A DNA stretch of 64,000 bases from Ectocarpus siliculosus. Taxonomy: Eukaryota; Sar; Phaeophyceae; Ectocarpales; Ectocarpaceae. The stretch spans positions 1 to 64,000 of the forward strand of contig FN648440.1 of NCBI GenBank assembly GCA_000310025.1, given 5' to 3'. Under the pieces are notes generated by a model that was not told the origin of the DNA, searched no databases, and saw only the letters and a program-made list of their open reading frames with translations. Made by a program: the position numbers and the translations under genes. Shown here in pieces: positions 24,565 through 61,843 of this stretch (the stretch's first letter is position 1; each line of letters opens with the position of its first letter).

Positions 24565-24609
<45 letters not shown>

Positions 24610-28096: not shown

Positions 28097-28924
28097 CACA
28101 GGCTTATAGTGTCCCTGCCACACTTTTACAGCTTCGTGTCACACGCATACGTTATGCGCGGTGCCACAGACAGGTCTAGTTGCAGCTGCTGCGTCCCCTC
28201 TCTCCTGTTTTTCCCCTTCCTTCTTGATGGCAAACGTGGTCCCCGGCAACGAACTCCCACCACAGCAACAACCTGCGCGTACGTCCCACGAGAGCGCGAC
28301 AGAGAGAGGTAGACGAGCGTTGTGAGGCCCCATGGACCTATGATACCCCTGCTGCCCTTGTACAGCAGTGGGTCTCACATGCCTAGGGTATTCTCGGTGC
28401 CGCAGCAACCCACCCTGGCAGCTACATAGATAGCTGCTGCCGAGTCCTGTCCGTTTGTGTGTGTGTGTGTTTTTTTGTTGCCAAGATGACGTGGCGCCCC
28501 TCCAACAACCACAAAGAAGTACAACAACAGCGCAAGCAAGAAGACAGAGGGCAGCCAAACTCCGTGTATGTCTTTGGCCTGGTCTGCTTGGACTGTTTCC
28601 CTTGCTATCTCTGTTCTCGGCGTAGTTGTGTGGCCGCAACAATGGGAGCAAAAATTGTTGATGTTGAGTCGAAGACCCACCTACCTCCCTCACCTGCTTC
28701 CACAGCGCACATATGTGCATACATCTTCAGGAAAGGAGCAGTAGCCTACGGGTCATGAGTAGCACTTCTAACGGCAGGAAGCCAGCGCTGCCGCTACCTG
28801 AACTCATTCCAGCGTTGAAGTAACGTCATCCCCATGAGGCTATCGATAAACTCGCGCACACCGACGACTCTGTACTGCGACTACACAAGCTACAAAATAG
28901 CTAGGTGTTCCACCTCTACGCAAA

Positions 28925-29143
28925 TGACACATGATACCACCCACCCCACCGACCGATTGTCAAATGTCGACAACGCCACGGGACGGAGAAGACGATGTCG
29001 AAATTAAATGGTGGAAAGCTCTCGACAGGACGGCTAGAACGCCGCCGGTTGCGGCACCGCCACACCTTCTTCTGTGTCTTGAGAAATCGAGCTTTCTTGC
29101 TGAAAATCTTTGCAGGGTGTGTGTGGTATCTTGTGTCACCAAC
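28925..29143. repeat. Short inverted-repeat (MITE-like) element, copy in left arm
   Basis: Termini TGACACATGATACCACCCACC at the left and the inverse GTGTGTGGTATCTTGTGTCA at the right bound about 218 bp. It is related to copies at 21524 and 27590 and is mirrored in the right arm at about 60435-60653, so it was in the element before the arms were last homogenised. Confidence 0.45.
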
Positions 29144-30399
29144 GGTGCATGTTGTTGTGCACACAAATACCTGCCTCTTTCTCGGCAAGCAAGACAGCAC
29201 TCCATAATCTACATGCAGCTGCATGTAGCCACCACAGCCGTGTAGGGCCTGGTGTTTTCAGATACCAATGCAGCAGTAGTAATATAAAAAGTAGTGTGTT
29301 CGAGTGTACACTAGACGTACGTGCTTCCGTAACCCGTAACAGCCCCGGGTTGGGTCTGGTACGCACGTTCATCAGTTACGTACGGTGTAGGCACCCAGCA
29401 GTAGTAGCACAGCGGCAGCAGTTTTTTGCGCCTATTCTAAAGGAAAATATGTTATCTGCCACGGCGTTTGTTTGTTGTCTCGACGGCAGATGAGACTGGC
29501 TCGCGCGATGGTATCTCGGTGGCGAAACTTCAAGCGAGGGCATTCGGCGGGTTGGCTTGGTGGATGACAATGGCGAAGCAGAGTGTTCGCTGGCCGTGAG
29601 GTCGTTCCAACACGCGCAAGCAAGGTGAACGGCCAAGAAAGATCAGCAGGGTTGGTTGTGGACTCTAGCCAGTCCTACTTGTATGTAGCTACGAGAAGAA
29701 GCTTATTGCTTTGGTTTTGAAGGCGGTCGTGCATAATGACGGCTGTTCGCATGTTTTGTCGGCGGCTTGCAAGAGGTTCCCTGCAATCCGACCGTGCATC
29801 TAACCGACCGAGCGGGGTGTTCAAAACGTACGACATCATGCTTGCGCGAAACCCCTTTTCCCCAGGGCATCTTGAGAGAAGTTGTCGCGGGATCGTGTGT
29901 GCCACAGAAAAAAAAAAATGTTCCCAGAGAACCAACTAACTGATGAAATGTGAGAACGCTAAGCCCGCACTGCGGACAGGCGCACGGCCCCGCTACTACT
30001 GCCTATCGAGCTCGATAAAAATCCCCATTATTCAGTACTCGCCATCTACTGCTGTAGGACCTCGCATTTCGTTGTCTTACACCACAAACATGAAGGCTCA
30101 AGCGTGCCTATCCCGTCGACGACGAGATGAAGCTTCAGCGTTACGGTAGTGGGCCGGGTGCCTTCGACACACACAGTTTCGGCGCGAAACGGGCGGTTCA
30201 AAACGTCTTGGTTTCGGGCCGGCCCGGGATAGCATTTACGCTCCAAGAACTGAAGGGTGTTGCTTCCACACGCGCGGCATTTTTTTTTTTTGACAGGTAC
30301 AACCACGCACAGACCGGGCGGACTCTTTGGAGAAGCGAAACTTGGGGTGCCGTGACTGCCTCTCGGACGAGCCGTTCGCTCGAAGCTATTTACTGTCGT

Positions 30400-30870
30400 T
30401 TGGGAGGATGGCTAAAGCGTCGGTTCCAGACTGCTCCTTGGGAGGATGGATGTACATAAAGACGAAGGCCGTCGTGGCCGCGTTTATTATGTAGGTGTGT
30501 GTGGTGCCCTTATTTTTAGGCATGTAGAAAGGTGTTGTTGGGGAGGATTACTTACTTCTCAACCGCCGTTTCAGGCTCCTGTTGGGATGGTGGATATGCA
30601 TAAAGACGGAGGCCGTCGTCGCTGCATTTTTTCTTGGGGGGGGAATGCTGCCCCTTTTTTTTGAGGAATACAGTTGGTGGGGAGGATGACCCAACCGTCG
30701 TTTCAGGCTGCTGCTTGGGAGGACGTAGATGCATGCATAAGAATGGGGGCCGTCATTGCTGCGTATTATTGTTTATATTAGGTGCGTATGCTGACCTTCT
30801 CCTTTGAAGCATGTATACACTTGTTAATGGGGAGGATGACTTACAACTCAACCGCCGTTTCAGGCTGCTA
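30400..30870. repeat. ~140-bp tandem repeat in left arm, about 3.3 copies
   Basis: Units begin GGGGAGGAT, contain ACCGCCGTTTCAGGCT and a GGCCGTCGT block, and recur at about 30402, 30541, 30679 and 30829. On the opposite strand each unit shows CAGCCTGAAACGGCGGTTGAG running into GTAAGT, resembling an exon end plus splice donor. Mirrored at about 58680-59160. Confidence 0.75.
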
Positions 30871-31180
30871 GTATATCTGGGAAGAGGGAAACACCAAAAC
30901 TGAAAGCCGGAAAGTAGGTGCTGCTTCCTTTCGTCTAACGTGTGTATAGTCTATGCTTCCTTCTTTTTTTACAGCAAGTAAGAGGGCAAACGTTCGTTGC
31001 CAAACTGCCTTCAATAGAGTCGGTGTACGTGCTGACATGGCTTATTCGTCGACGTATGTCGGCTGCTAGGTTTAGCGGTGTGTAAGCTGGAAGTTCGAGG
31101 TACTGACAGCTTCTTCGCGGCGGGTGATTGCTCGAAACCTCGTGAATTGATACGCCAGCATGGAGGACAGTTAATTTGAT

Positions 31181-31990
31181 CTACTTCGTTTTTTTGCATA
31201 CCTTTACGGCGTGGTGGTGCGAGAGGACTCCTTGCCGAGCTGGAAGTTGTAATTGGGTGTTGACGTACCCATGAAATCGAAAACAGTGCTTGAAAATCCC
31301 AGATCGACTGCTGGTTGCTGCGCTTTCGAAAACGCAAGGAAAAAAGGCATTGGACGAAACAGAGCAAATTATCTGCTGATTGAATCCTTCTTTCTCTCCT
31401 GCTTCACTTAAAACTACAGTTAGCAACCAGGCAACATCCAGGCAAACCGCCGGGTGACCGTTCGAGAAAAAAAAAAAGTCCAGTGTCTACGTATCTCCTC
31501 GGGAGCGACCCGGTTGGTGTACACTGGCTCCTACAACAATAAATACATGGGAAGATACACAACACTACACAAAAATACCAATCAATGTACAATACTTACT
31601 GCCATCCCTGACCACCCAGTTTTGCTGCCTCTTGTCAGTCATGCACGGAAGAAAATTGTCAGTGTTAAACTCCCGCACGAAAAACGGGAGGAGGCCTACC
31701 ATCACACGACCGATATGCAGTGTTACCTTCCTTAGAATCAGCCGACATCGAGGAAAGAAATTATACATGTCGAGTTCTATCGCTACACCCTACGTACACC
31801 GCTCGCTGTTAACCAATACTTCCACAGGGCAAAGAACGGCAGTCAGTTTATCCAGCTACGAGCATACATACCTCCTCGAACTGTTGCTGACGAAGCTTTC
31901 AGAAGCAACGCGTCGACGGCAAACGCCCAGTCCATACTGGCCAGTCCGTCTGTTTTTGTTGAGTCTTCACGCCCACTACTTCCAACGTGA
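31181..31990 (-). CDS. Possible arm-encoded gene, left copy
   Basis: Same reading frames as the right-arm copy at 57560-58376. Segments with coding character are: about 31990-31850 (SMDWAFAVDALLLK, ending at a GTATGT donor); about 31780-31580 (LPFFVREFNTDNFLPC, KRQQNWVVRDG, ending at GTAAGT); and 31426-31181 (ending AVKVCKKTK). No family recognised. The frames survive in both arms, which mildly supports selection or recent copying. The join between the last two segments was not resolved. Confidence 0.3.
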
Positions 31991-32203
31991 TGTACACGCA
32001 CCCAGAATAATTCACCGTACCTACAATTTACCCACATGATATTTTACATTATCATCAACGACGGTGGCTCCACGTCCTGCTCCCCGACGCAAGTCTGGCC
32101 CCTATGTTAGACCGTACACCGATGGTGGAATCCTACAGTCGTCTCAACCCCATGTTAATGTTCTACTCGCTCCGTGCTTCCAGCTGCACCTCTACAGTAT
32201 CGT

Positions 32204-35200
32204 CTATGTCCCACCACTGGCACCCCCGCGCGTGGTGTTGCCACTCGAACTTGTTCTAATCGCTGAATACAGGTTCCTCCTCTCCACCACTGGCATCATC
32301 ATTGTCAATGGCAGAAAGTCGTTTAGCGTTGCCACCGGAGTCATCGCTTCATAATAATCGTCCTTGTCCAGAGGACCACCGTCGTCGCCGTCGATGTCGC
32401 TGGTGCTGTTTTCACCGTCGTGGAGGTAGACGGCACTGCCTCCGGGCCTGACGAGGACCGGCTGGGCTTCAGAAGTGTTAGTCACCCCTTTGTAGATTCT
32501 GAGCTTGATGGGAGTCTTGGGGTTATCCTCAGCATCAAACCACAGGGCATGAGTGTCAGACTTCTTCTTGTCTCGTGGAACTTCGGACAAAATCTCGTGG
32601 TGGGTGAAGGGATCGCTAGATTCCCATCGCGCGTAATAGGCGGGGCATGTTTTCGCGACGCGCATGTAAAGCGTGGCCCCTGGCGCGACGAACTCCTTGC
32701 CTGGAACGAGCATTTGTTTTAGCTGTGCGCTGTCGGCGACGCGGATAAGCCGAACAGCCCCGTCTACCCGGTCGGCGCGGAGTGACTCCCTCGCTTCCGC
32801 TGGTGAGAGGTGGATCTCCATGTCCCCCCAGATAGGAATCTCCGGGCCGTTCATTGCGTACTTCATCTTCGGAATTGTGTAAAGGGCGTAGCTGCTGTCG
32901 TATCCATCCTAAACGTTTTCGTTGTTCAAAATACAAAGTGTTAGACAGAATAAACAAAGAAAGGAAGAAAGAAGCGCCGCCGCTAACAATGATACGGACG
33001 TTTGTCAGACAGATTCGTGTAGGTCTTTGGGGTAGTTTGGCGTAACGAAAAAAATGTATAGGAAGGACGAAAGCTGCCTAGGAGAGCATGAAACGACGCA
33101 ACACTTAACATCTACCTCCCTAGAGTCAACATGGGAGGAATAACACCAACGCACAAATGCATCAATCCGTGACTCCATGATCAAAACGGCCCAAGCAAGA
33201 AGAGGATGTACGTTTTTCCCCTGGAATCACCACATTGCTGTGGTTGACTACTAGATTACCCCGCGCTCGCAAACGGAGCAGCGGATACTAAATAACCTTC
33301 TGGGATTGGACACTAGTACCACCGTCGAAAATATCACCCCACGCTCTGACAAGGACAGCGTTCACCTGCACCAAAGCCTAGCCGACAGTGGAAGAAAGCT
33401 TGGAAGCAACCAAAGTCAAGACCTTGTCAGATGGCTCGTCACCAGTCTCGCCCGCTTCTGCCATCATGTCTTGGACGACGGTAGGGACGCTAGCTGGCGC
33501 GGAAGAACGAGGAACAGCATCCGGCAGATTCCCCGGACTTATCGTTCTCAAACCACCGGCGGGGTCCGGCTCCCGCTGCACAAAGAAAGGTTATCGCACA
33601 TGATTTGGGTCAGCATAGGTAGGAGTACAAAGTCAGGAAATAAATTGGTTAGGGTCAATAGAAAGAGTTGTATCAACAACCAGCCGCATCCTCGATCGCA
33701 GGAAGCTATAAGAAGGTACATACGACGTCGGACTCTGGGACGCAGCAGTAACTGAAAAACGGTGTGGTTGTATTCGAACTAACACTACTGTCCGTTGTCC
33801 TTGGCATGAAGGGGTCAGTATTGACGAGGGCAACATGAGTTGCCGCGGCGTGGCCAAGTTGAATCCACACGAGCCCGACACGCCCATGAAAGGTCCATTG
33901 AACACTAGCAGGAAGACTAGCCCAGAAACCCACTCCAGATTCAAGGTTGACTTAGGTGCACTTAAGGGCGAAAACATTGAGCTTGGGCCGCGGCCTCGTT
34001 CTGTACCAAATCCCTCACCTTGAACACGCCGTCTGCCCACGCGATGTCGAAGGCGTCCTTCACGCGTTCTCGCATCTCGTCTACGTTTCTATCGTCGACT
34101 GGAAACACCTCCACCTTCCTACCGAGGGAGAGCGCAGTCTCGATCGTCTTGTCTCGGTCGCCGCAGGTAGACACGACTGTGTCTTGCAGGTTAGTGAACC
34201 TGTTTTGTACATGACCGACACGACGATTGTGATTGGTAATTCGTCATGCCCAAGCAAGCGCTGAGAGCACAGGGGGAGCTTTTGGCGGAAAGGTTCGAAA
34301 CAACCAGAACGAAAATCGGCTGGGGATCACGCACACACATTTAATGATACCATACCAGCAACGTTTACGTCAAGTACAAGGTGGCAAGGTATGACGTGCA
34401 TAAACATCGGCTATTTCGAGGAAAACGGGAAAAGTGTTCTGCACTAATACCCTCAGTTCCATACTTTGACAGACCCACAGCTCACATTGATTCACAAAAA
34501 GCCAAGAGTCAAGTGACAGCATCACGCCCACGAACCTGTTGATACACATGGTCAGGAGGCGAGGGGGGAACGGTGATAGTGCATTCTCGAACGGCACCGC
34601 CTTCATGAGATTAAGACAGGGACCCGACGAAGATTCAGCACCGTGGACGTCATCGGCGGTCACGGTTTGGTTGCACGTGAACCTGACGCTAGGGATGCTA
34701 TCGCCCGTCGTGGCTTGGTGAGCCACGAGAAACTGGTGAACCCTTCCGGTAAGGTGACGACGGTCCGATTTGTGTCCTGGGCGCCCGCCTCCCCGGGACT
34801 CGAACTCTACCAGCATAGGATGGTCCTCAACCTCCAGTGCCGTTCCCGCTTGCTTGAAAGCACCTGTGCAACAGGCAACAGACATCCATTCAATAAGTCG
34901 CTCACTCCAAAATCCAAAATGGCAGCGATACACGGCCGAAAATCACTGCAGATAAAACCATAACCAATCAAATTAGGTCACGCTAGCTTAATGTGGCACG
35001 CCCAAGCGCCCCTGCACAGCACCACGCCCTCACGATGACGTTGACAAATACATACGTCTGTTGTGAGTATACTGCCTAACTGCTGGAACTATCCATTCGT
35101 GAAGACTCTCCAAACACAGAAAGAAAACTCACCAGCCCAGCGGTGCGCGTGTTCGTAGACCGGCGTGGGAAGATCACAGACGACAGTACCGGACGCGTGA

Positions 35201-35415
35201 AGGCTACCGGACGCGACCAGCGCACGGGTAAGGTCGCGGATGCGGGCGAGAGTGGTCGCGTTGTCGGGTAAGAGGGTCTTGTCGGCACCGGGGTTGAGAA
35301 ACAACAGCTTCGCAGGCTCCTTCGTCCCCACGTGCGTCAACAGGTCGTCGACGCCGACGCTGTGGCTGTAGTACACCCTCTCGTGGACGTGAGTGTTTTG
35401 GTCCGTGATTATCAT
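32204..35415 (-). CDS. Gene D: conserved-looking multi-exon gene of unknown function
   Basis: Start ATG at 35415 (MIITDQNTH). Exons: 35415-35133, 34863-34536, 34176-34019, 33575-33366, 32908-32204. Junctions 1-2 (phase 1), 3-4 and 4-5 (phase 0) close exactly with good splice sites; junction 2-3 is one base off, so a small exon may be missing. About 560 residues are predicted. I recognise no domain. Features are a Leu/Asp-rich N-terminal part (SVGVDDLLTHVG), a Cys/Asp patch (STCGDRDKTIE), a Ser/Pro-rich linker, and a C-terminal part with repeated Asp (STSDIDGDDGGPLDKDDYY). A TAG at 33384-33382 lies in frame four codons before the donor of exon 4; a weaker donor just upstream would avoid it. 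The terminal stop is TAG. It sits 192 bp downstream of gene E on the same strand, just inside the left arm, so it is probably cargo or an accessory gene of the giant element. Confidence 0.5.
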
Positions 35416-35607
35416 CAGGGGACAAGTAGCAAAATACAATCAGCCAGGATCGTACAACGACCGAAAGTGTTTAAAGCAACGTAGGGCCAACAGCGCGGCC
35501 CCGTAATGTCCTAGCACACAACCTAATCGTTTCACTGGACACAAGAAAATACAAGCAATACGACCGATATGTAGTGTGTCATAAAATGGCAGTACAGCAT
35601 CACATGC

Positions 35608-38600
35608 TCACTTCAGAAAGCTTTTCATGTCGGCGTCGGACTGGTCTTCCTCGGGGAATGCGGCGACCTTGTCGAACACATCGTGCATCTTCCGCCTTTT
35701 CTTCTTTTCCCCGCCACTTCCACCCTTCCCGTCCTTCTCGGGACAAGTCTTGCACTGCATTTTCGGCAGTCTCACGCCCTCGTCTGAGTAAGCATTTTCC
35801 ACCAACGGGCAAAACATTCTGTGGTGCATGTTGCACTTATGGCAGGACCACCTGATCGAGTCGGCGTTGTGGGAGGAAGAATGTGGTTGCAGTTACTGTT
35901 GGGCGCACCGACAAAACGAGCTCCACCGAAACGAGCAGCAAGAAAAACTATCTGAATCGCGGATACCGAAACGAGCATCAAGAATACCATCTGAATCGCG
36001 GATCCCATAATCCAATGTATACCTTACCTGTTGTCCGGCTCCGGTTTACACGTGCCGCATCGGATGAGCGGCGACTCGTTGTTGTCCTTCCTCCTCCCTT
36101 TCCCCTTCCGCTTCCCGTCGTCGTTGTTCTCATCGTCCTCGTCCTCCTTCTCCTCCTCCTCCTCCACCACCACCACCACCACCTCCTCCTCCTCCTCCCC
36201 CCCCCCTTGGGTTTTGCTCTTCCTTGCAGTTCGTCTCCGTCCTTTCGCCCCTCTACTCCCTCTCCCTGCTCCCCCCCACGACTTCCCTTTCCTCTTGCGC
36301 TCGGAAGGGCGTTTCATGGGTTTCGCCAGCTGCAGCTTCTTCCTCGTAACCGCATTCTTCGCCTCCTTGAGCCTCTCCATAAAATCCTCGTACGATGGCC
36401 GTAGAGAGGCGTCGGACTCCAGAATCTTCACTCAAGATACGAGAACAAAAAATGGCAAACAGCACAGAAAAAATCGCGTAGCAGCGCAAGGTAGTTATAC
36501 ATCTCAACATTCCATTGAACACAAGTGTCATCGCGACCATCTGGGCACGACTTGAGCGGGACGCAGCCGTTACAGAAGTGGCAGAGATCGTGTGTTGATA
36601 GGGCCAGACGATCAGTCAGACTAATGTATCTGCATGGACAATGTTATGCCCGCGATGCTTATTGGGCCTTAAGCTTGCGCTCACTAGCACATCACGGCAC
36701 ATTACTTCAAGGACTATGGGGGAGTGGGGTGGCCAACGAGAGTTATTGACCGATACTGTAGGGAAACGACCTTTTTGATCCTGCTGGGCTGCTGCGAGCG
36801 AAGGGTCTGGACGATCCATTCCTCAAGCTTGGGGACGCTATTACTGCCGTGCTGTGGGAGACCTTTGCTGAGCTTCAAAACCTCATCCTCGAGACCGTCG
36901 AGGAAGGCTTTCTGGAACGACTACAAAGCAGGCTTCGCGTAGGCCATATTTTCGAACTCGCTGTTGGATAGATTTAACGAGGGGGCGACGACGGGACGAA
37001 TGGCAAGAATTGCGAGGGGCACAATCATGGGTACCTAGGTGTCAACTGCATCGATCAGACATGCGAGGTACCCGTTCCTGGACAGGAGTTTGTCAGAGGG
37101 CTGAGACGTTCCTTGCGCTGCCTAAGAAAAAAAACGTGGGTACCTACCTTTTAAGCTCCTGCGACCAATCCTGGTAAGGCACGATGCCACAAAGGGCGAA
37201 GTACCATTGTGCCACGTCCTTGGCCTGCGCAATGATCGGGGGGGTGTCGACGTCCGCCTTGAATGCTCTTCCTTGCTGGAACTTCTTCCACCTGACACGT
37301 TACAAGTACATCGTGGATTTGGGTTCGATGATGGGGGAAGAACGTGAAGTTGGGATCATGGTCCATAGATCATGGTCGAGAGAGTGGATTCCGCGGGAAC
37401 GAAGAAATAACGGTCCGTCGGAGACAGGTACTGCCAACGGTAAGCTGACCTTCGTTGCTGCTGTAACAGTCGCGTACGTCTATCTAGCCCAACATTACCT
37501 GGCCAGGATCTGCAGATTGAAGCCCTGCTCCTCAGCTGAAAGCGCCATGAAGTCATCCTTGCTGATGTAAGCTAGGGTGACGAGGTTGAGGTCGATGGAC
37601 TTATCTTCGGACTCGACCAGGTCCTTTAGGGCGGTGAGTGCTTCTTCTTTGATGCCCCTCACGGCCTTCAGCCAGCTGCGAAGCGTGGAGTCGCTGGGGA
37701 CCGCCTGCTTTGCCTGAAGAAGCGAAAGCGACAACCAGATAGTTACTGATGCTGCTGCTGATACACAAACCATTGAGCGGGGGTATTGTGCAATTAGTAT
37801 GTACTACTACCGCATGAGCTACGGCAAGTACACAGAGTATTCCACACAACAAAACGATACCACTGCTACGTCGATCGGTGAAGAACATCCGTTCGATATA
37901 GGGTTGTTGTTGACTTTTCATGATCATCTTCTGACCAAACACGTGCTTACCTTCGCGTAGCATTCCTTGATGTCCTTGGGGTTCACTTGCCTACTACGGG
38001 ACCGCGACGTTTCCAGGGAAGCCTGTGCTCCCTTGTAGAGGGAGCTGAAGAAGTACAGCCGATCGTAGATAGTGCGTTCGGCGAACGTCGAGGTGGCATC
38101 ATTGCACGCTGAGGAGTAGTAAAGAACAAACAGGAAAAAAGGTCAGAGCACTTGAATGTTGAGTGAGATAATGGTGTATTAGAGGGAATCCACGTGTTGT
38201 TGAAATGACGTGAAATATTGACATTTCAGGAAGTTTTGACGTGACGAGGTTACGCCGCGTTTTTGGAGGCAAACTCTGACGGCGAAATTTTTGTGAAAAA
38301 GCGTCAAAACTTAAACCGACGCGAAAAGATTGACACTTCAAATATCGCCAGACTGTGGCTCACACACTCTTGCTCTGTGCTCTGTTACCATCACCAAATC
38401 ACGAAAGGAGCGCGGTCAGCAGCGAACACATTGGCCATGCCTACTGATTGCTCCTAGCGGTCCTGCACATACACGTCTCGGCAGTTCTCACGGCGGCCCA
38501 GTGGCCGGACTCGCGTGTTCGGCGCGCGCGTTCGGTAGATGAGCCATCGCGATTGATTTCGCACGGGCTTTCAGCAGCAAAAAGCGGCATAGGCAGTACT

Positions 38601-40056: not shown

Positions 40057-40335
40057 CGTGGTGTACGCCGTTCTAGCTGATCAAGGACAACAGGCTGTGC
40101 TAGCGAGACGGCTGCTCGGGGCAATGGTGGACATAGGTAGGGTTTCGCGGGAGGGAGCGGCACACAGATACGGTGACGTATGAGGTGGTGTCCCGACACC
40201 TGTCCTCGAACTCTAGAAGGGCTTGTGTAGACAGCAGTTGAATTCCCAAGCTGAAATATATCGCAGTCTACATGTTGGTTGTCGGAGGCATCCAAATCAA
40301 AGCTTCCTCGTAATAAGCACGATTGGATTTCACCG

Positions 40336-40347
40336 CACAGCGCTGTG
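40336..40347. promoter_or_regulatory. 12-bp palindrome, operator candidate 1
   Basis: CACAGCGCTGTG, a perfect palindrome within a longer block repeated at 40603. Spacing between the two centres is 267 bp. Likely a dimeric protein-binding site, possibly for a protein encoded by the element. Confidence 0.5.
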
Positions 40348-40602
40348 GCTTTGAATTAAAATACATCATCCGGAGGACGTTAACATTTTAAAAACGTTTC
40401 GTGAGCAGGAAACGCTCAAGTTTAATTTAATAGAATCATCTTCGTCTCGAAAAGGGGTGAAAAAGATTCACACAGAGCTCGAATCAAGAAGGGTTTGTTA
40501 CGCCGACAGTTGATTTTTAAAATATCCAAATGCGGATGTAACACCCGCAGAACCAAAAAAAGAACACTTTGCGGGCTTCGACGCCACGATTGAATTTCAA
40601 CG

Positions 40603-49800: not shown

Positions 49801-52800
49801 CGACCCAAGACTGTGAATCTCTTGTCATGGGCTACATCCTCCTCGTCGATAGCTCGCCGACGGCGCTTCTCCCGGCGTTGCGCTGCGATCCCCCTGGGAT
49901 CTTGACGCTTCCCACGCTCAGGCATGGTAGTGGAGTTGCCTTGGGAAGCACTTTGAGGTGCTGTTGGTGCTGTCTAGGTGTGGTGTGATGAAGACAGCAC
50001 GCGTGACCGGTGTCTGCTCCGGTAGCCGAAAAAAAGCGGGAAATTTTTCACCGAACAGTAAAAGGAGCAAGCCCCCAAAAAATACGCCTTGCTCTTTTTA
50101 CGGAAACGTAGAGGAACGCCTCCATATATTTCAAGAAAATACGGTTTCGTAACCAAATACGTATTTTTTCGGCCTGATAAGACACAACCTAAGTCGATAT
50201 ATATATTATATGTGTTTTTGCTTCACAGCAGGACAACTTCAGGTTGACATTTTTGTTTGACACCACCGGAGGCCGGTGGATCTTTACGAAGTCCATGTTC
50301 CGTTTTATTTTTTTTAACGATTTTACCCCGGAGACGCAGGAAAGGATAAAATGAATGGCAACATGTACCACTTCGTGACGTCACATAGATAGGATGACAA
50401 AAGAAAAGTTGGAAAAGAAGAATACGGTAACCTGTAGTCTATTTCACATTAAATTTGTTAGTACACGCCGGACTTCTTCCACACATCTGGGTTAGAATCC
50501 AAACACCAAACTGGAAATACCCTAATATTATCGATCGCCCTCGACAATTTGGGACGTTTGCCACCAGTTCGTCGTGCTCCGGCGTCCGACCCATTGAATA
50601 TACCTCCTGGAGTGAGTACGCGAACAACTCATCACAACACTACACCGTAGTTCTCCACCAGAAGACCCAAAAACGTGTCGCAGGCGCTGCCAATTGAAAT
50701 GGCTTTCTTCTTTGATGTACCCGCGAAGATTTGCATCTTTTGGGGACGGCTGCAGTGGTTATTCAATCAACTGCCATCACACTATTATAGACACCCCGTG
50801 AGGATGATGCGTACTGCGGAATTACAGGAAAGACCGAGTACGTGTTGGAGTCCATGCCAACTGCAAAGGGCAACAAAAACCATGATCGTGCGCCTGAGTG
50901 TCCCAAACATGTAATACTATCAGGTTGAAACAGCCGGACGCCAAGTGTGGAAAAGGCTCGTATGACCCGACTTTCGGTGCACATCAGCATCAACTGATGA
51001 AGTAAGCAGTATGACACCGACACAGCAATCGGGAAAATTTGAATATTTTTATTGGGCCTTCCTAAAGATTCCGAAAGACGACACGCACGTCGTTCACACG
51101 TCCAGCCCCACCAATAGGTTTCTAGCGCTCAACCTTACCACACAGCAACCCAGTGATTTACCACGCACTGTACACCCCAACTCATGACCGATCCAAGAGA
51201 TCGCGGCAACAACCGCCGTCGAGACGACACAAACACAAGGAACCGCCGGTACCGAGTTGTCAACGCCACCGACATAAACACGCGTCGAGGGGCTCAGCGT
51301 GCTGCCTCCGCCGATGCTCTCAACGCCCATCGTAGAGCACAATATTCCGCGTCGGCAGAGGCCATCAACAGCCGTCGTAGAACTCGCCATGCCGACAGAG
51401 CACAACAGCTCAACGCCGCACGTCGACGGCGTAGAGCGACCGTCATCAACAACAAAAGGGGGTTGCCCTTCAACGACATCTTTCACGCCGAGGACGACTC
51501 CACCTCACTACGAGCCATTGTTGGAGACCGCCAGCGAGCCTTGGAGGAGGCGCGACGAGACCAGGGCATCACAGCGCAGACCGGAGATCCTTGCCGGCAT
51601 TGTGGCGCCAAACTGTTCGCTAAAGAGTCCAAGGGCATTTGTTGCAAGAATGGGAAGTACATCCTCCCGCGACTGCCGCCACTACCCCCTTCATTGAAAG
51701 AATTGTACGATTCTCCGGAGCCATCAGCGCAGAGGTTCAGGAAGGAATCGAGGATGTATAACTGCCGATGCAACTTCGCCTCGCTCAACGTGGAGGATGG
51801 TGAACTCAAAAAAATGTTCGGTGACCATCTCGTGTCTGTCCAAGGGAGGTGAGATCGATTGACATGTGCAACGATATATGCTACAATTGTATAATGAGGT
51901 ATAGATTCATTCGTGTGGTCTTTCATTTCTATTTTCCTTGGTGGTTTAATACACGTTTGATTCGTTCGATAGCATATAATTGAGTGTAGATTAGTTCGTG
52001 TGATCTTTCGTATATATCTTTATTCGTGTTACAAAATACAATACATCCATATAAAAGCGTATTTTCGTCTTTTCTTCTGTACGACGCAATACCCGAACAC
52101 CTTCCGATACAAAAAACAATGTCACTAACATCAACAATAATTTCCCTCCTCCGTTCATATTCCATTCACACACCGCATCACAAGTTCGTACATCCTGCGC
52201 TCTCCCCCATGTACACCGTTCCTGCCCATCTCTTTGGCCAGAACTTACCATTCTGTTCGAGACGGCGGCCATTCCAACGTTCAATGGCTCCTACATGACC
52301 TCAACTTCGTCTCTAGCCACCTCGACAAAGGGACCATGACGACGATACTGCGCGAGTTGCGATCCACATCACCCTATGTCGGACGCCTCAAAGCCGCCAT
52401 GAGCACTCGGTGGGTGCCTACCGTCACGACCTATACTTAAAGTTAGACTACAGCAAAATATTCGAGTATCATTTGGCTCTGTTAGACATGTCGAACGTGC
52501 TTCCTGCTGCCAACATCCCCACATACCACTTCGTATCCATATTGTGCATATGTTTCTATGATATGTTGGGAAGGTGCAGAACGGGAGTTTTGTTTGATCC
52601 ATCCGTTCTACTTCTCACGTATCTGGTGCGAATCATTCTACATCATTTCCACTTCCACCGTTCCTTTTCCAGGACTGAATCGGCTGCTATTTCGAGCACC
52701 TTGGCATTCTCCGCGCCTGGTGCACCGTCGTCAGAAATGATAGCTGTGGACACCCGCAGCAGGGGGGTCATGCCTACAGACAAGACCACCATGACGAGGA

Positions 52801-55800
52801 CGCTCACAGGGGAAATAAACACCATCAGTTACCTCAATCGTAACTATTTCCCTTTGACATACGTCCTGCTGTTTCCGCACGGTGGGGAATCCGGATGGCA
52901 CCCCGACCTGAAGAGCACGACCGGTCGAAAAATCACGTTAGCACAATGGGTAACCCAGTTGTTGTTCAGGGAACCACGATTCGAGAAACTGGGGCCATTG
53001 GTCAACGAATTTCTCATCGACGTTTTCAGTTGCATCGAAGATCAACGACTCTCGTTCCACGCACATAACCAAGACAAGTACCGGACGTCGATGCACCACG
53101 CGTCTGCAGTTGCGCAACGTTACCGGCAACCGCAGCCCCACCACGATCCCGTCGATGCCATCATCGTCCCATCGAGTTTTAGCGGGGGATTCGCCGACCA
53201 AGCGAAGAAGCTGACGGAGTCCATGGCGATTCTACGCCACTTCGGGCGGCCATCATACTTCCTCACCGTCACGTGCAACACAGTGAGTCCTTACGGTACG
53301 AACACGTGTACGACACAAGTATACCGACAGACAAAACCTTCCTGTTTGTATTCACTAAACATCCACATATCTATCTCATCCTTCGCACTCCGCAGGAATG
53401 GCCGGAGATACAAGAACGATTACATCCGGGACAGACGGCTTTCGATCGCGCCCAACTTTGCGCCAGAGTGTTCAAACAGAAACTCGATGCCCTGCTCAAG
53501 GTGATTACATGTTTTCCTTGCGTTCGGCCCCATCGATTATTCGTGTCACGACTCATACGACGTCCATAGACACTCCGCCTATCGATTCCACATCGTGTAC
53601 ATGTCGCATATCTCCTGGCGGAAACATTTTCACTCACAGATCATTCCTACCCCCCCGAACTTCGACCCCACAGATTTACCTCAAGTCTTCGGCAGAATCA
53701 TCTTCAGGATCGCGGTCATTGAATTTCAGGTGAATTCCTCTGCTACCAAGGTCTGTCTACGTCATTTTGGGAGCGGCTTTCAAACTTTTCGTTGATAAGT
53801 CTCCGTGTGTCCTTTTCCGCACATGAGTAATATGCGGTTATTACCTTTTCTTTCGCTTCCACGATGGGTCTTTTATCACCCCGTCTTGCATTTCTGCGGA
53901 CCTGCGTTATCAAGAAGGATTGGGTTCAAGTCCGACTTGTTTCCCCCCTTCGCTGCCTTTCTCTATCTTTCATTACGTACTGCATGTGTGCCGTTTCATC
54001 GGCGTCGGACTCCTCGATACTGGTGGATTACCTGTTGCAGATAAAGGGAGTTCCTTTATTCCGAGAGAGCCATACGTCGGCATCCGGCCTTTACATGTTT
54101 TTTATGCATTCTTCTCCTGATGAGTCTCCGTGTCACTTTTTCTGCGCTTGAGTCACATGCAGTTATGACCTGCGCTTTGACTTTCACGATGGGTATTTCA
54201 CCCCGTCTTGCATTGGTGAGTACGTGTGTTATATAGAGGAGCGTTCAAGTCCTACTTTTCCCCCCTTGCGTTTCCTTCCCCTATCCTTCTTTGCGTGTCG
54301 CAACTGGGTGAGTCCTCGTCGTCGGCCTCCTCGATACTTGTGCATTACTTGTTGGAAATTGTGGGAATCCCTTCCCTTCATTCCGAGAGAGCCATAGGTC
54401 GGCATCCGACCTTTTCATTTCAATTTGCATAGTTCCCCTCGTCATGTTTGCCGTTACGATTACCATCGATGCTTAAGCGCGTATGTCTTCAATCTTCTTA
54501 GCCGGCCTTCCGACTCCTCCCTGATAAGTCGCCGTGTCAGCTTCTCCGCGCGTGAATCATGTCCAGTTATGACCTTCGCTTTGACTTTCACAATGGGTAT
54601 TTTACCTCCGGGTCTTGCATTTCTACTGTAGTGTAGGTACCTGCGTTTTGAGGAAGGACTGCGTTCAAGTATCATTTTTTTCCCCTTGCGTTTCCTTCCC
54701 CTGTACCTCTTCGCGTACCACATGTGTGTCCTTCATCGTCGTCGGCTCCATACTTGTGGATTGCCTCTTGGAAATTCTGGGAATCCCTCCATTCCAAGAC
54801 AGCCATAAGTCGGCATCCGGCATTTTCTTTTTTTGTATGCATTTTTCTTCTTGTGCACTTTTTCCGTTGCGCTTGCCATCGTCGCTTAATTACATGTTTG
54901 TGTCTTCAAACTTTCGCAGCCGGCCTTGAAACTTCTTCTTCATGAGCCTCCGTGGTAACTTCTCCGCGCACGGGTTATATGTAGTTATGTCCTGCGCTTC
55001 GACCTTCATGATGGGTATTTTACCTCCCCGTCTTGCATTCGTGAATACCTGCGTCATACAGAAGGTCGTTCCACGACGCAAACATCGACGTCTCTTTTTT
55101 CTTTTCTTCCCTTCGCACTCCTTCCTTCCGGCACTTCTCACACCAACTTCAAACGTGGGGTGCAATTTGCTCTCTTCGTACCTTTCTTGTCGGCAATCTC
55201 CATCATAATGTGCATAATGTGTACTTCGGTTTTTCGGCTTTACAATTTCCGATAGACCAGACTATGGACTCACACGTCTCTTCCCCCTCCGCAGGACCGC
55301 GCGCTCGTCGAGGGCCGAAAATTCTTCACAAATTCCTTACCTCTCCACTTCTTCCCCCTACAAATCCTCTACCCTTCTTCTTCTTCTTTGCTTCCCCACG
55401 GACACTCACTACCATCGGGCCGGGATGTTGGCCCCCAGGCCCATTGGGGGGCGGGGGGCCAATCCTTAACCCTAGTGTATGTTTACCATGGAAACAATCA
55501 ATTAACACGTTGTCCGAAACATATTCTCCCACATTGCGTGCTTCATGAAGGGAGCAACCTAGTGTGCACGGCGTTGTACCTGCAACTCATGAAGCTCGTC
55601 GAGGACTACGGCGAAACCCTTGAGGACGTTGTCTTTCAGGTGGACAACACGGTGGCGGAGAATAAAAACAACTACTTGCTAGGGTGCTTGGGGCTGCTGG
55701 TCGCGAGGGGTGTGGTGAAGACGGCAACGCTGATGTTCATGCAGGTCGGCCACACGCACATCATGATCGACCAGATCTTCTCGAGGTGAGTATCGGAGAA

Positions 55801-57377
55801 GGAAGAAGAGACGGACGACACTTTTCTAGGTAACATATTAGAGTATAGTGGAGTATAGTGATTTACGCAGCCCTGTCGTTTGTTGCTGTTTGTTGTTTAT
55901 GCTGTTTAGTCTGCCCTATCCTTACTGCAACCGAGTAGGCCAGTCCCTGAACGCATATTACCTTTTCGCATCTGTTCGTTTCCTTTTAACCGTCGCCACG
56001 AAGATTCGGTACAGCTGTTAAGGGGCGCAACATCTTCACGAGAAGTCATCTAGCTGTCGCTCTCCGAAACGCCTACGACACCCTGCCGGTACACGTGACG
56101 ACGCTCGAGAATCTGGGGAACTTCAAGGAGCTGCTACTAGGAGCGACCAGCAGGGTCCCCCGCATCACGGCCTGGCGGGCCTTTCGGGTTCAGATGCAGG
56201 GTGGTGCTTGCGTCGTCGAGGTCAAGCGGGCCATGCACCATGAGCGTTGGTTAGGATTCAGCGCAAACGGGAAGGAGGTGGGGACGGGAGACGGATTTTC
56301 TCCGCATAGGCTGTTCTTCCAAGGCTCTGTGCGCATCGAAAGCTTACCTTCATACAAGCTCAAGACGGTGGACCCCCATACGATTCACATGATCAAGCAG
56401 CGGTTCGAGGCGTCTCATTCGAGGATGGCGGCGGCGTTCCCGGGCGGTGAGTACACATATGAAAATGGCTGCTGTTACTGTTAAATTGGCTACCATCTGG
56501 GTCCCCTCGGGGCTACCTTCTGATGTCCTCTACGGCGATTTTCTGTTTATTTTTTTATACAATGCTAGAGATACTCAACGTTACTGACTGCCAGCAATAG
56601 TAGGTACACGTTTTAGTCGTGGTGTTGTCAATTCGACAAACTCGTGTGCCACTTCCCTTGACGTATTCATTTGTTCCGGTTCTCTCCTCAGATCCAGCCC
56701 GAGTCCAGGCGCTCAAACAAGAGCAAAGGCGGCAACTTCTTCTCCTTGAGAGGAAGGGCCATCTTCTGCCTGATCTCCCCGTGGATTGGCTACCCGATAT
56801 CATACGGGAGGGATGCGACGACTCCGACGAAGGCCTGCACGTTGGAGGAAATGACGACGGCGCCAGCGACACAGACGAAATCCAATCTGACCACGACAGT
56901 TCTGAAGACTAAGACGAACACGGCCACTGTGCTGCGGCCGGGAGAGTGCAGGGGCGGTTGCCGGTGAAGGGAACCGATGGCAACCAAGGTCGTCATCATG
57001 CCACCATTGGCAGCTTCGGGTTTTTGTTGGCGGATGAGGCACCCTTCCTTGTTGGAAAGATTGATCGGGAAAGGACTGGTGAAGGAGGCGAGCGCGAGGT
57101 TTGTCTGCACTGGTTCACTCCCAGTGCCCGCTTAGTGAGTCAGGCGTCGTCGGTGGAATTCGAAAAGTACGGCCGGGCCGTCTTCAGCCAAACGTTCATC
57201 AGTCTTCCGGTTGAGGCAGTAGCAGGGCAACGCCAAAAAAAACAGTATGTCCCGGACGAGGGGTGGGAGCCGGAGTCTGGTATTGTGACGACCTGCCGTT
57301 TGTTGAGGAGGTCGAAATACGTTCCTGCGACTGTGCTCAAGGTGTTGCGTGCTGCGAAAATGGCCTCCCAAGGATAG
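40815..57377 (+). CDS. Gene C: DUF7869-type protein, candidate transposase of the giant element, with 11.3-kb intron
   Basis: Exons: 40815-41376, 42628-42804, 42986-43319, 43695-43855, 44163-44251, 55551-55785, 56004-56446, 56692-57377. From exon 2 onward every junction closes in phase; exon 1 to 2 does not, so a small exon may be missing. Visible blocks: a Cys-rich N-terminal part (TCCARMRCVEC, then EPVCSNAFMWLFGVS), GDFMLCETCTRLKG in exon 3, and in exon 6 VDNTVAENKNNY followed by VGHTHIMIDQIFSR, the hallmark of DUF7869 proteins. The Asp-rich pattern looks like an RNase H-type nuclease; that is inference. An in-frame TAA at 56910-56912 precedes a C-terminal module (FGFLLADEAPFLVGKI, CLHWFT); it is either a premature stop or removed by an intron (possible sites 56842 and 56949). 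The final TAG at 57375 is followed three codons later by TGA. Intron 5 hosts the Harbinger and Helitron elements. Confidence 0.6.
41377..42627. other. Intron of gene C, with CAG microsatellite
   Basis: No exon recognised. An eight- to nine-copy CAG run is at 41627-41652 and a short poly-C run at 41907-41916. A small exon may be hidden here, since exons 1 and 2 do not join in phase. Confidence 0.4.
43428..43466. repeat. (CATA)n microsatellite
   Basis: About nine CATA units with one CACA interruption, in an intron of gene C. Confidence 0.85.
44420..45600. repeat. Cluster of diverged dispersed repeats in gene C intron
   Basis: 44425-44705 matches the reverse complement of 63180-63435. 44755-44850 matches the reverse complement of 14660-14790. 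Within the block, a segment with GTTGTG(T/C)TGTGACGGCAT recurs at about 44573, 44965 and 45500, so three diverged units of some 400-530 bp lie in a row. A poly-T run is at 45137-45153. No gene recognised. Confidence 0.6.
45623..45654 (+). repeat. Harbinger left terminal inverted repeat
   Basis: 32 bp ending in AAAAATACGTA, preceded by target duplication TAA at 45620-45622. It differs from the right end at positions 3 and 21. Confidence 0.93.
45848..45994 (+). CDS. Small open frame in Harbinger element, doubtful
   Basis: A 48-codon frame starting MNNNAVAVADRPSR and ending VAQITVKEMFGDE. Harbinger elements usually carry a second, DNA-binding (Myb/SANT) gene and this position would suit its first exon, but the peptide is too short to identify. 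Listed only for completeness. Confidence 0.15.
   Translation: MNNNAVAVADRPSRTKTVPLRLQGGGESGAAAGHGVAQITVKEMFGDE
47277..49925 (-). CDS. PIF/Harbinger transposase (HARBI1-like DDE)
   Basis: Catalyses cut-and-paste movement of the Harbinger element. Exons: 49828 (or 49925) to 49575, about 48903-48668, and 48014-47277 (TGA stop). The exon 2 to 3 junction is phase 0 with AAG/GTGAGA and TGCAG sites. The DDE fold is visible: VVAAVDG (first Asp), STNDW and GDAAYPIGEKLL (second Asp), IEQSFGIL (Glu). Exon 2 carries a helix-turn-helix-like segment (AGGSYWDVALMFGLSRAV). Exon 1 ends LVELLRPSLEVN, typical of the family. The ATG at 49925 opens a basic frame (REKRRRRAIDEEDVAHDKR) that differs from the frame of the rest of exon 1, so either translation starts at 49828 or a one-base shift exists near 49810. 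The exon 1 to 2 phase is unresolved. All catalytic residues are present, but activity is uncertain. Confidence 0.85.
50158..50189 (-). repeat. Harbinger right terminal inverted repeat
   Basis: Inverted partner of 45623-45654, followed by target duplication TAA at 50190-50192. Confidence 0.93.
50193..51183. other. Between Harbinger end and Helitron coding start
   Basis: About 1 kb with no recognised gene. The 5' TC end of the Helitron should lie here, or left of the Harbinger if that element jumped into the Helitron, but I could not fix it. Part is presumably original intron sequence of gene C. Confidence 0.35.
51184..53729 (+). pseudogene. Helitron Rep protein, N-terminal part only
   Basis: Exons 51184-51849, 52242-52409, 52673-53282, 53396-53500 and 53640-53729 join in perfect phase with consensus splice sites and no internal stop. 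The protein shows the Helitron N-terminal zinc motif (CRHCGAKLFAKE, then GICCKNGKYILP), SPYVGRL, and the Helitron-like N domain (YLNRNYFPLTYVLLFPHGG, FGRPSYFLTVTCN). It ends FRIAVIEFQ at 53729, immediately before the point where Rep proteins carry their HUH histidines (PHxH); those, the catalytic Tyr and the helicase are absent. The exons are clean, so truncation seems due to a deletion or replacement rather than slow decay. From ATG 51184 the first exon is Arg/Asn-rich. Confidence 0.8.
53795..55070. repeat. Diverged ~320-420-bp tandem repeats inside Helitron
   Basis: Units start near 53795, 54118, 54520 and 54941 with GATGAGTCTCCGTG-like sequence, then contain GTTATGACC, CACGATGGGTATTTTACC, CCGTCTTGCATT, TTCCCCTTGCGTTTCC and GGCATCCGGCC blocks. 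Three full copies and a partial one differ substantially, so the array is old. It begins 65 bp after the last Rep exon, occupying the place of the missing Rep and helicase coding sequence. Confidence 0.8.
55428..55475 (+). terminator. Helitron 3' terminal hairpin and CTAG end
   Basis: Stem TTGGCCCCC / GGGGGCCAA around a 17-base loop, a nine-base spacer, then CTAG and a following T. This matches the structure that ends Helitron rolling-circle transfer. It lies 75 bp upstream of gene C exon 6. Confidence 0.8.
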
Positions 57378-57446
57378 AAGACGTGAGCAAGAGGTCTATT
57401 TGTACTCCAGTAAAAGCACTGCTTGTGTTGTAAGCGTCTACACGCG

Positions 57447-60400
57447 AGACTTGCGTCGGGCAGCAGGACGTGGAGCCACCGTCGTTGATGATAATGTAAA
57501 ATATTTTTGTAGAGAGCCATGTAGGTAAATTGTAGGTAAGGTGAATTATTCTGGGTGCGTGTACATCACGTTGGAAGTAGTGGGCGTGAAGACTCAACAA
57601 AAACAGACGGACTGGCCAGTATGGACTGGGCGTTTGCCGTCGACGCGTTGCTTCTGAAAGCTTCGTCAGCAACAGTTCGAGGAGGTATGTATGCTCGTAG
57701 CTGGATAAACTGACTGCCGTTCTTTGCCCTGTGGAAGTATTTGTTAACAGCGAGCGGTGTACGTAGGGTGTAGCGATGGAACTCGACATGTATAATTTCT
57801 TTCGTCGATGTCGGCTGATTCTAAGGAAGGTAACACTGCATATCGGTCGTGTGATGGTAGGCCTCCTCCCGTTTTTCGTGCGGGAGTTTAACACTGACAA
57901 TTTTCTTCCGTGCATGACTGACAAGAGGCAGCAAAACTGGGTGGTCAGGGATGGCAGTAAGTATTGTACATTGATTAGTATTTTTGTGTAGTGTTGTGTA
58001 TCTTCCCATGTATTTTATTATTGTAGGAGCCAGTGTACACCAACCGGGTCGCTCCCGAGGAGATACGTAGACACTGGACTTTTTTTTTTTCTCGAACGGT
58101 CACCCGGCGGTTTGCCTGGATGTTGCCTGGTTGCTAACTGTAGTTTTAAGTGAAGCAGGAGAGAAAGAAGGATTCAATCAGCAGATAATTCGCTCTGTTT
58201 CGTCCAATGCCTTTTTTCCTTGCGTTTTCGAAAGCGCAGCAACCAGCAGTCGATCTGGGATTTTCAAGCACTGTTTTCGATTTCATGGGTACATCAACAC
58301 CCAATTACAACTTCCAGCTCGGCAAGGAGTCCTCTCGCACCACCACGCCGTAAAGGTATGCAAAAAAACGAAGTAGATCAAATTAACTGTCCTCCATGAT
58401 GGCGTATCAATTCACGAGGTTTCGAGCAATCACCCGCCGCGAAGAAGCTGTCAGTACCTCGAACTTCCAGCTTACACACCGCTAAACCTAGCAGCCGACA
58501 TACGTCGACGAATAAGCCATGTCAGCACGTACACCGACTCTATTGAAGGCAGTTTGGCAACGAACGTTTGCCCTCTTACTTGCTGTAAAAAAAAGAAGGA
58601 AGCATAGACTATACACACGTTAAACGAAAGGAAGCAGCACCTACTTTCCGGCTTTCAGTTTTGGTGTTTCCCTCTTCCCAGATATACTAGCAGCCTGAAA
58701 CGGCGGTTGAGTTGTAAGTCATCCTCCCCATTAACAAGTGTATACATACATGCTTCAAAGGAGAAGGTCAGCATACGCACCTAATAATACGCAGCAATGA
58801 CGGCCCCCATTCTTATGCATGCATCTACGTCCTGCCAAGCAGCAGCCTGAAACGACGGTTGGTTCATCCTTCCCATCAACTCTATTCCTCAAAAAAACGG
58901 GGCAGCATACCCCCCCCAAGAAAAAATGCAGCGACGACGGCCTCCGTCTTTATGCATATCCACCATCCCAAGCAGGAGCCTGAAACGGCGGTTGAGAAGT
59001 AAGTAATCCTCCCCAACAACACCTTTCTACATGCCTAGAAATAAGGGCATCACACACACCTACATAATAACCGCGGCCACGACGGCCTTCGTCTTTATGT
59101 ACATCCATCCTCCCAAGGAGCAGTCTGGAACCGACGCATTATTAGCCATCCTCCCAAACTACAGTAAATAGCTTCGAGCGAACGGCTCGTCCGAGAGGCA
59201 GTCACGGCACCCCAAGTTTCGCTTCTCCAAAGAGTCCGCCCGGTCTGTGCGTGGTTGTACCTGTCAAAAAAAAAAAATGCCGCGCGTGTGGAAGCAACAC
59301 CCTTCAGTTCTTGGAGCGTAAATGCTATCCCGGGCCGGCCCGAAACCAAGACGTTTTGAACCGCCCGTTTCCGCCGAAACTGTGTGTGTCGAAGGCACCC
59401 GGCCCACTACCGCAACGCTGAAGCTTCATCTCGTCGTCGACGGGGGAACTGAACAACTATCCCCTAGGCACGCTTGAGCCTTCATGTTTGTGGTGTAAGA
59501 CAACGAAATGCGAGGTCCTACAGCAGTAGATGGCGAGTACTGAATAATGCGGATTTTTATCGAGCTCGATAGGCAGTAGTAGCGGGGCCGTGCGCCTGTC
59601 CGCAGTGCGGGCTTAGCGTTCTCACATTTCATCAGTTAGTTGGTTCTCTGGGAACATTTTTTTTTTTCTGTGGCACACACGATCCCGCGACAACTTCTCT
59701 CAAGATGCCCTGGGGAAAAGGGGTTTCGCGCAAGCATGATGTCGTACGTTTTGAACACCCCGCTCGGTCGGTTAGATGCACGGTCGGATTGCAGGGAACC
59801 TCTTGCAAGCCGCCGACAAAACATGCGAACAGCCGTCATTATGCACGACTGCCTTCAAAACCAAAGCAATAAGCTTCTTCTCGTAGCTACATACAAGTAG
59901 GACTGGCTAGAGTCCACAACCAACCCTGCTGATCTTTCTTGGCCGTTCACCTTGCTTGCGCGTGTTGGAACGACCTCACGGCCAGCGAACACTCTGCTTC
60001 GCCATTGTCATCCACCAAGCCAACCCCCCGAATGCCCTCGCTTGAAGTTTCGCCACCGAGATACCATCGCGCGAGCCAATCTCACCTGCCGTCGAGACAA
60101 CAAACAAACGCCGTGGCAGATAACATATTTTCCTTTAGAATAGGCGCAATAAACTGCTGATGCTGTGCTACTACTGCTGGGTGCCTACACCGTACGTAAC
60201 TGATGAACGTGCGTACCAGACCCAACCCGGAGCTGTTACGTGTTACGGAAGCACGTACGTCTAGTGTACACTCGAACACACTACTTTTTATATTACTACT
60301 GCTGCATTGGTATCTGAAACCACCAGGCCCTACACGGCTGTGGTGGCTACATGCAGCTGCATGTAGACTATGGAGTGCTGTCTTGCTTGCCGAGAAAGAG

Positions 60401-61483
60401 GCAGGTATTTGTGTGCACAACAACATGCACCGTTGGTGACACAAGATACCACGCACACCCTGCAAAGATTTTCAGCAAGAAAGCTCGATTTCTCAAGACA
60501 CAGAAGAAGGTGTGGCGGTGCCGCAACCGGCGGCGTTCTAGCCGTCCTGTCGAGAGCTTTCCACCATTTAATTTCGACATCTTCTTCTCCGTCCCGTGGC
60601 GTTGTCGACATTTGACAATCGGTCGGTGGGGTGGGTGGTATCATGTGTCATTTGCGTAGAGGTGGAACACCTAGCTATTTTGTAGCTTGTGTAGTCGCAG
60701 TACAGAGTCGTCGGTATGCGCGAGTTTATCGATAGCCTCATGGGGATGACGTTACTTCAACGCTGGAATGAGTTCAGGTAGCGGCAGCGCTGGCTTCCTG
60801 CCGTTAGAAGTGCTACTCATGACCCGTAGGCTACTGCCCCTTTCCTGAAGATGTATGCACATATGTGCGCTGTGGAAGCAGGTGAGGGAGGTAGGTGGGT
60901 CTTCGACTCAACATCAACAATTTTTGCTCCCATTGTTGCGGCCACACAACTACGCCGAGAACAGAGATAGCAAGGGAAACAGTCCAAGCAGACCAGGCCA
61001 AAGACATACACGGAGTTTGGCTGCCCTCTGTCTTCTTGCTTGCGCTGTTGTTGTACTTCTTTGTGGTTGTTGGAGGGGAGCCACGTCATCTTGGCAACAA
61101 AAAAACACACACACACACAAACGGACAGGACTCGGCAGCAGCTAGACTATCTATGTAGCTGCCAGGGTGGGTTGCTGCGGCACCGAGAATACCCTAGGCA
61201 TGTGAGACCCACTGCTGTGCAAGGGCAGCAGGGGTATCATAGGTCCATGGGGCCTCACAACGCTCGTCTACCTCTCTCTGTCACGCTCTCGTGGGACGTA
61301 CGCGCAGGTTGTTGCTGTGGTGGGAGTTCGTTGCCGGGGACCACGTTTGCCATCAAGAAGGAAGGGGAAAAACAGGAAAGAGGGGACGCAGCAGCTGCAA
61401 CTAGACCTGTCTGTGGCACCGCGCATAACGTATGCGTGTGACACGAAGCTGTAAAAGTGTCGCAGGGACGCTATAAGCCTGTG
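57447..61483. repeat. Right ~4.0-kb inverted arm
   Basis: Reverse complement of the left arm (28097-32096), starting 69 bp after the gene C stop. It carries small insertions relative to the left arm (near 57502, near 59450 and near 61142). It includes mirrored copies of the short inverted-repeat element (about 60435-60653) and the ~140-bp tandem repeat (about 58680-59160). Confidence 0.85.
57560..58376 (+). CDS. Possible arm-encoded gene, right copy
   Basis: Segments with coding character: to 57684 (SMDWAFAVDALLLK, followed by donor GTATGT), about 57754-57956 (MELDMYNFFRRC and KRQQNWVVRDG, followed by GTAAGT), and 58131-58376 (ending AVKVCKKTK). The same frames exist in the left arm. The product is unknown. 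The frame across the acceptor near 58026 is unclear. Confidence 0.3.
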
Positions 61484-61840: not shown

Positions 61841-61843
61841 TAA

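Follow-up and report, generated by a model that had tools for sequence, protein, structure and literature searches.

A 48.3-kb transposon of Ectocarpus siliculosus with long inverted arms and divergent DUF7869 and ParB-like genes

A giant transposon, referred to here as TE1, occupies positions 14829..63128 (48,300 bp) of a 64,000-nucleotide stretch of the genome of the brown alga Ectocarpus siliculosus (contig FN648440.1 of assembly GCA_000310025.1, positions 1 to 64,000 of the forward strand; this whole stretch is called the window below). TE1 was inserted as one unit into a copy of a common repeat, for which a clean empty site was found, and at least four other transposons have in turn inserted into it. 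Its two multi-exon genes are divergently arranged, a pairing that recurs at other, diverged loci. In our view, TE1 is probably (with a probability of about 0.8) a cut-and-paste, diverged giant transposon of the Sola-1 type, riddled with insertions. The genome searches were run against this assembly, which comprises 189 Mb in 492 contigs.

Borders and insertion site of TE1

TE1 is flanked by TGTT at 14825-14828 and 63129-63132, and this 4-bp target duplication closes the left flank and opens the right one. The termini are identical, with AACAAGGAATTC at both ends, and the end letters are AACAAGG. In the genome search, the terminal AACAAGGAATTCTCTAACTTA gave three mismatch-free matches, which start at 14829, at 63128 (reverse) and at position 18849 (reverse) of another contig, C141. 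No further exact match to the terminal 21-mer was found in this search. When the two flanks fused with a single TGTT were used as a query (177 bp), 326 candidates were obtained; the 40 scored matches all span the junction, with 92-96% identity, and 36 of them cover the full length of the query. Two of these 40 matches were aligned in detail, and both alignments are gapless (over 255 and 250 columns) with TGTT present in a single copy. The insertion site is itself a copy of the common repeat; the window holds another, more diverged copy at 44417-44853.

With a looser terminus pattern, 84 matches were obtained versus 117 in the control, which gives no signal beyond the four mismatch-free places. 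Near-matches to the terminus on C27 and C128 were rejected as relatives, since the reversed-pattern control likewise gave two matches. At C143:87338 (L066) lies a related terminus, 79% identical over 76 bp, which fits the looser pattern without mismatch; the 3 kb examined beyond this point did not contain the inverted heptamer CCTTGTT. One lead is a variant of the looser pattern, seen five times, which in C125 lies at a distance of about 11 kb from a DUF7869 exon. Terminus-like 20-mers (3 mismatches) occur as three repeats with a spacing of about 455 bp at C33:2312409-2313339.

An earlier note on this DNA had described a 33-kb giant transposon with inverted arms and ParB-like and DUF7869 genes, extending from 28097 to 61483. 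An element of this description is present and did insert as a unit; its gene count has to be revised, as do its size (48.3 kb) and its borders (14829-63128). At position 28097, a nested transposon, TE2, has its inner edge, and the arm continues outward in both of the other arm ends seen. The outside flanks of the 33-kb block had also been said to join into a sequence found uninterrupted elsewhere in the window. This proved mistaken: the sequence in question, at 14.8-15.2 kb, is the outer piece of the left arm itself (14829-15208) together with the left terminal repeat of TE2, and the left flank resembles the continuation of this copy for 21 bp only, because the same TE2 inverted terminal repeat occurs there in the opposite direction. 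Searches for other copies, empty sites and target duplications did yield an arm on C141, an arm fragment on C30 and, for 14829-63128, the empty site and the TGTT duplication.

Inverted arms and nested insertions

The left arm is split by TE2 into an outer piece of 0.38 kb (14829..15208, + strand) and an inner piece of 4.0 kb (28099..32099, + strand), positions 15207-15208 and 28097-28098 being the two copies of the CA duplication of TE2. The right arm consists of a main part (57444..61843, - strand) and an outermost piece of 21 bp (63108..63128, - strand), the first three bases of which, TAA, are one copy of the duplication of another nested transposon, TE3. A third arm runs from 18464 down to 14547 on C141, and a 1.28-kb arm fragment was detected on C30. 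The 389 bp directly outside the C141 arm (C141:18461-18849) match window positions 14829-15210, and 365 bp of the outer piece also lie outside the matching part of the right arm of the window, at 61480-61844. Since the same piece adjoins the arm contiguously at both of the other arm ends seen, 14829-15208 was taken to be the outer part of the left arm. In a non-exhaustive genome search, this piece was found in three places, together with a weaker 74-bp match on C143.

The earlier description of the arms as near-identical is borne out: the stretches 28097-32099 and 61483-57444 are 97.4% identical over 4050 columns, with 49 mismatches, and the complete inverted arms of TE1 are 4.4 kb long and 98.8% identical. 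Of 4371 aligned sites, 51 differ between the left and right arms; against the C141 arm, the left arm shows 124 differences and the right arm 130. The changes private to the left arm (21) and to the right arm (24) are fewer than those common to both against C141 (101), which suggests that, once separated from the copy on C141, the two arms remained similar to each other as a pair and have since drifted. The simplest reading of this pattern, which comes from one element, is that exchange between the arms of TE1 before or at insertion would keep them alike. The C141 copy is a second insertion elsewhere, its outer flank having no match to the flanks in the window. Long arms that are alike as a pair may be a new feature, and the unusual part of TE1.

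TE2 (15209..28096; 12,888 bp) has the terminal repeat CACACGTAGCCACTTTGCTCC and the duplication CA. Its right end (27600-28096; 497 bases) is multicopy: of the 40 scored rows, 22, including that of the window, stop at base 492-497. The left end, which begins near 15208, also occurs in multiple copies. Both ends were found on the same strand and in the correct order, 5.7-24 kb apart, on nine contigs (C172, C83, C56, C65, C261, C57, C25, C4 and C94), and the genome holds some 20 copies. TE2 contains many CAGGGT/ACCCTG subterminal repeats, ten of its open reading frames (ORFs) gave no Pfam match, and by its ends alone it looks EnSpm-like. TE3 (61844..63107), a 1,264-bp element with the terminal repeat GACCCATGTTTATGG and the duplication TAA, interrupts the right end; beyond it, the last bases of the arm resume up to 63128. 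TE4 (38180..39129; 950 bp; duplication TAT) has many genomic copies and is absent from the C141 copy, and the Harbinger-like TE5 (45623..50189; 4,567 bp) shows inverted terminal repeats of about 32 bp and the duplication TAA, with a DDE_Tnp_4 gene inside. A Helitron-like fragment (51157..53504, + strand) lies in an interrupted intron of gene C, described below; Helitron_like_N was matched at 52317-53504 (E 9.7e-16), and the ORF at 51157-51852 gave no Pfam match. The same intron holds four diverged tandem-repeat copies with a spacing of 325-418 bp, at 53774-55071.

When TE2, TE3, TE4, TE5 and their duplications are subtracted, TE1 comes to about 28.6 kb, or about 22 kb if the remainder of 44,254-55,549 (the repeat copy, the Helitron fragment and the tandem repeats) is also counted as inserted. 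The stretch 32100-36169 was rejected as a further insertion: the C141 copy joins there in CTCC-rich sequence without a duplication, and the gap therefore looks like a deletion in C141. Another gap in the match between TE1 and C141, at C141:3122-11411 (L024, L025), contains a pair of identical direct repeats of 297 bp, separated by about 8 kb, and looks like a young long terminal repeat element.

The divergent gene pair

Gene C (41046..57374, + strand) has exons near 41046-41327, 42626-42763, 43038-43334, 44161-44253, 55550-55786, 55999-56460 and 56913-57374. In an exon-by-exon tblastx search with the relatives on C296 and C362, which show about 37-63% identity to its exons, these exons were recovered in order from 41046 to beyond 57000. 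The assignment of gene C to the DUF7869 type in the earlier note was confirmed by the Pfam profile, which covers 55526-55798 with an E of 1.9e-20; the match runs weakly into the next exon, where it (E 0.0048) falls short of the family cut-off. The exons listed are open, and the stop at 55787-55789, shared with the C362 relative at this position, marks an exon edge. The intron between 44253 and 55550 measures about 11.3 kb in the window, whereas that of C296 measures about 0.5 kb. The genome contains 12 DUF7869 rows, including that of the window; no match was found in any of 14 control genomes, and none of 90 pattern matches in viral contigs was confirmed.

The accessory gene (32207..40080, - strand) comprises a ParB-like exon (39269-39886), a cysteine-rich exon that is zinc-like as judged by eye (35611-35892) and a C-terminal exon (32207-32908). 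Relatives of the ParB-like exon, with 31-34% identity, occur at nine places besides the window and C141. At seven of these nine loci, the C-terminal exon matches downstream on the same strand with an E of 5.5e-13 or better, and weaker middle exons lie between the two in the same order. C296, where the contig ends, gave a single weak middle-exon match (E 0.083), and no downstream accessory-gene exon match was found at the C413 locus. The earlier note had treated the C-terminal part (gene D) and the ParB-like part (gene E) as separate genes; the fact that the gene D exon recurs downstream of the ParB-like exon, with strand and order kept, suggests that they behave as one, and they are most likely to be a single multi-exon gene divergent from gene C.

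Outside the window, four of the 11 DUF7869 rows (C206, C296, C94 and C106) have a ParB-like exon 4.1-4.6 kb upstream on the opposite strand. Looser pairs are present at a second locus of C106 (25 kb apart) and at C33 (gene D exons only, about 12 kb apart). Since DUF7869 recurs in a divergent pair with a ParB-like gene, it is predicted to be a transposase domain, and gene C remains our best guess as to what moves TE1, as the earlier note had supposed.

Between the two genes lie two copies of the palindrome CGCACAGCGCTGTG (40334..40614). The duplicated palindromes previously noticed in this divergent promoter region were found again at 40334 and 40601, and are the only matches in the window at up to two mismatches; they account for four rows on both strands versus 0.65 expected, and one of 100 shuffles reached four. 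The 12-bp palindrome core also occurs once in C141 (L024:2937).

Elsewhere in the window, an open frame of 595 amino acids without any Pfam match is present at 2620-4407 (- strand), and 11456-12883 form a satellite-like tandem array, the unit of which is 67 bp long, with larger duplications of 743 bp.

Classification and possible mechanism

A 4-bp target duplication, which is typical of Sola elements, is present in TE1 (TGTT). Giant KDZ, EnSpm and Sola-1 transposons, often with nested insertions, are described in Ectocarpus in the excerpt of PMC12477816 (2025) on which this comparison is based, including Sola1-1_Ec32, a 21.5-kb element in which a 1104-amino-acid gene with ParB-like and DNA methyltransferase domains lies opposite the transposase. 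TE1 resembles this element, as far as its description goes, in its giant size class, the nested insertions known in giant families, its brown algal host and its opposite-strand, putatively ParB-like accessory gene. They differ in that TE1 is 48.3 kb long (an estimated 22-28.6 kb without inserts) and in that no methyltransferase domain was detected in its gene. The layout and the insert-free size fit the published description, and the 4-bp duplication fits Sola elements in general; the Sola-1 type is the most likely one, and the kind of element to which TE1 belongs is most likely already known. The previous statement that no element with such a gene set had been described therefore does not hold well. 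The other cassettes in the assembly may belong to the Sola1-1_Ec32 family.

Other known systems fit less well. Foldback and Galileo elements have long inverted arms between which sequence may be exchanged, but no P-type gene match was found in the ORFs scanned, and the duplication of TE1 is 4 bp long, not 8 bp as in P elements. KDZ duplications are longer, and EnSpm elements have 2-3-bp duplications and termini beginning with CAC, in contrast to the 4-bp duplication and AACAAGG ends of TE1, the tested ORFs of which matched no KDZ or EnSpm transposase family. Polintons/Mavericks show a 6-bp duplication and carry an integrase and a DNA polymerase B; the duplication of TE1 is 4 bp long, and no such family was found in the subset of its ORFs that was scanned. 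Helitrons have a RepHel protein and neither inverted arms nor a duplication, unlike TE1, in which the Helitron domain is a fragment within an intron of gene C. Galileo is assigned to the P superfamily in the excerpt of PMC4168063, the KDZ and EnSpm giants covered in that of PMC12477816 are like TE1 in size class, host group and nested insertions, and the TTAA duplication given for Kolobok and piggyBac in that of PMC9587614 differs from TGTT.

Several observations weigh against the Sola-1-type reading or parts of it. ParB-likeness rests on gene position and on the DGNHR motif, which we take to be a ParB-like mark; the E-values for this exon at loci other than the window and C141 are modest (2e-7 to 5e-5), there was no match to any Pfam ParB family, the AlphaFold2 model of the ParB-like ORF of the window has a predicted local distance difference test (pLDDT) score of 33, and the ParB-like ORF of C296 gave chance-looking matches only. 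No methyltransferase family matched the joined accessory-gene exons, and an exon-by-exon search of the genome gave 0 matches to N6_N4_Mtase (PF01555), although a diverged domain split by introns could escape such a search. The 5' part and the ParB-like part of the accessory gene are in different frames in the window and in one frame in C141, where the gene is damaged further on; because of this frame damage, the gene looks decayed in both copies. No ParB-like partner was found at five of the 11 other DUF7869 rows (C23, C2, C362, C365 and C125), nor a DUF7869 row at four of the nine other ParB-like loci (C378, C50, C246 and C413). Pfam assigns no function to DUF7869, which is the only Pfam family matched by gene C, and no solved structure matched the DUF7869 exon alignment. 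Long arms were seen in the TE1/C141 family only, and both arms together in one element only.

Among the alternatives, the one to be taken most seriously, at somewhat less than even odds, is that TE1 is now a non-autonomous or dead passenger, the arms of which are moved by a transposase made elsewhere, with genes C and E as decayed cargo. It concerns the present state of TE1 and is compatible with a Sola-1-type origin; the frame damage in the accessory gene, the insert-filled gene C intron (about 11.3 kb versus about 0.5 kb in C296) and the frequent prediction, in the excerpt of PMC12477816, that giant elements carry pseudogenised transposase genes speak for it; against it, the exons found for gene C are open, and the pairing of the two genes is seen at other loci too. 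It is rather unlikely that this 48-kb transposon belongs to another or a new DDE superfamily defined by DUF7869. That domain has no named function, no paper naming it was found in our literature search, and 4-bp duplications also occur in other groups, for example TTAA in Kolobok and piggyBac (PMC9587614); the divergent ParB-like accessory gene, however, is a Sola-1 trait published in Ectocarpus (PMC12477816).

The arms would be a local inverted duplication or an assembly artefact, outside any mobile unit, only in a very improbable case. The two are closer to each other than to the C141 arm, of which a single one was seen, C30 holding only a fragment; but the same terminal 21-mer ends both arms, and the 4-bp duplication and clean empty site enclose them. 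Neither arm is an assembly copy of the other, since each has its own nested insertion and private substitutions. A 33-kb transposon (28097-61483) inserted into the sequence at 14.8-15.2 kb is scarcely credible: the arms do match from exactly 28097 and 61483, and the joined flanks resemble 14846-15230, but the left flank belongs to an element with many copies, of which it forms the end, and 14829-63128 has a cleaner empty site. This reading is already refuted by the outer piece, which is joined to the arm at C141:18461-18849, and by the joined flanks of 14829-63128, which are uninterrupted elsewhere.

If TE1 is of the Sola-1 type, the DUF7869 protein would act as a transposase on the AACAAGGAATTC ends, and the opposite-strand protein as a ParB-like DNA-binding accessory, which may once have included a methyltransferase and which would recognise TE1's own DNA, perhaps at the intergenic palindromes. 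The arms would be kept alike by mutual exchange before or at the last jump. A bolder version, which we think unlikely, is that the ParB-like protein might mark or bridge TE1 DNA via the palindromes or arm sites, and that the excised linear element might fold back on its 4.4-kb arms, each jump making them equal again; if this were true, fold-back would make transposition a proof-reading step for the ends.

Giant eukaryotic transposons of this kind are little described in the literature found; for one of them, the present analysis supplies the exact end sequence, the duplicated target and the layering of its nested insertions. The recurring divergent pair links DUF7869, to which Pfam gives no function, to a ParB-like gene, and the comparison of the arms suggests that long inverted arms remain alike within a single element.

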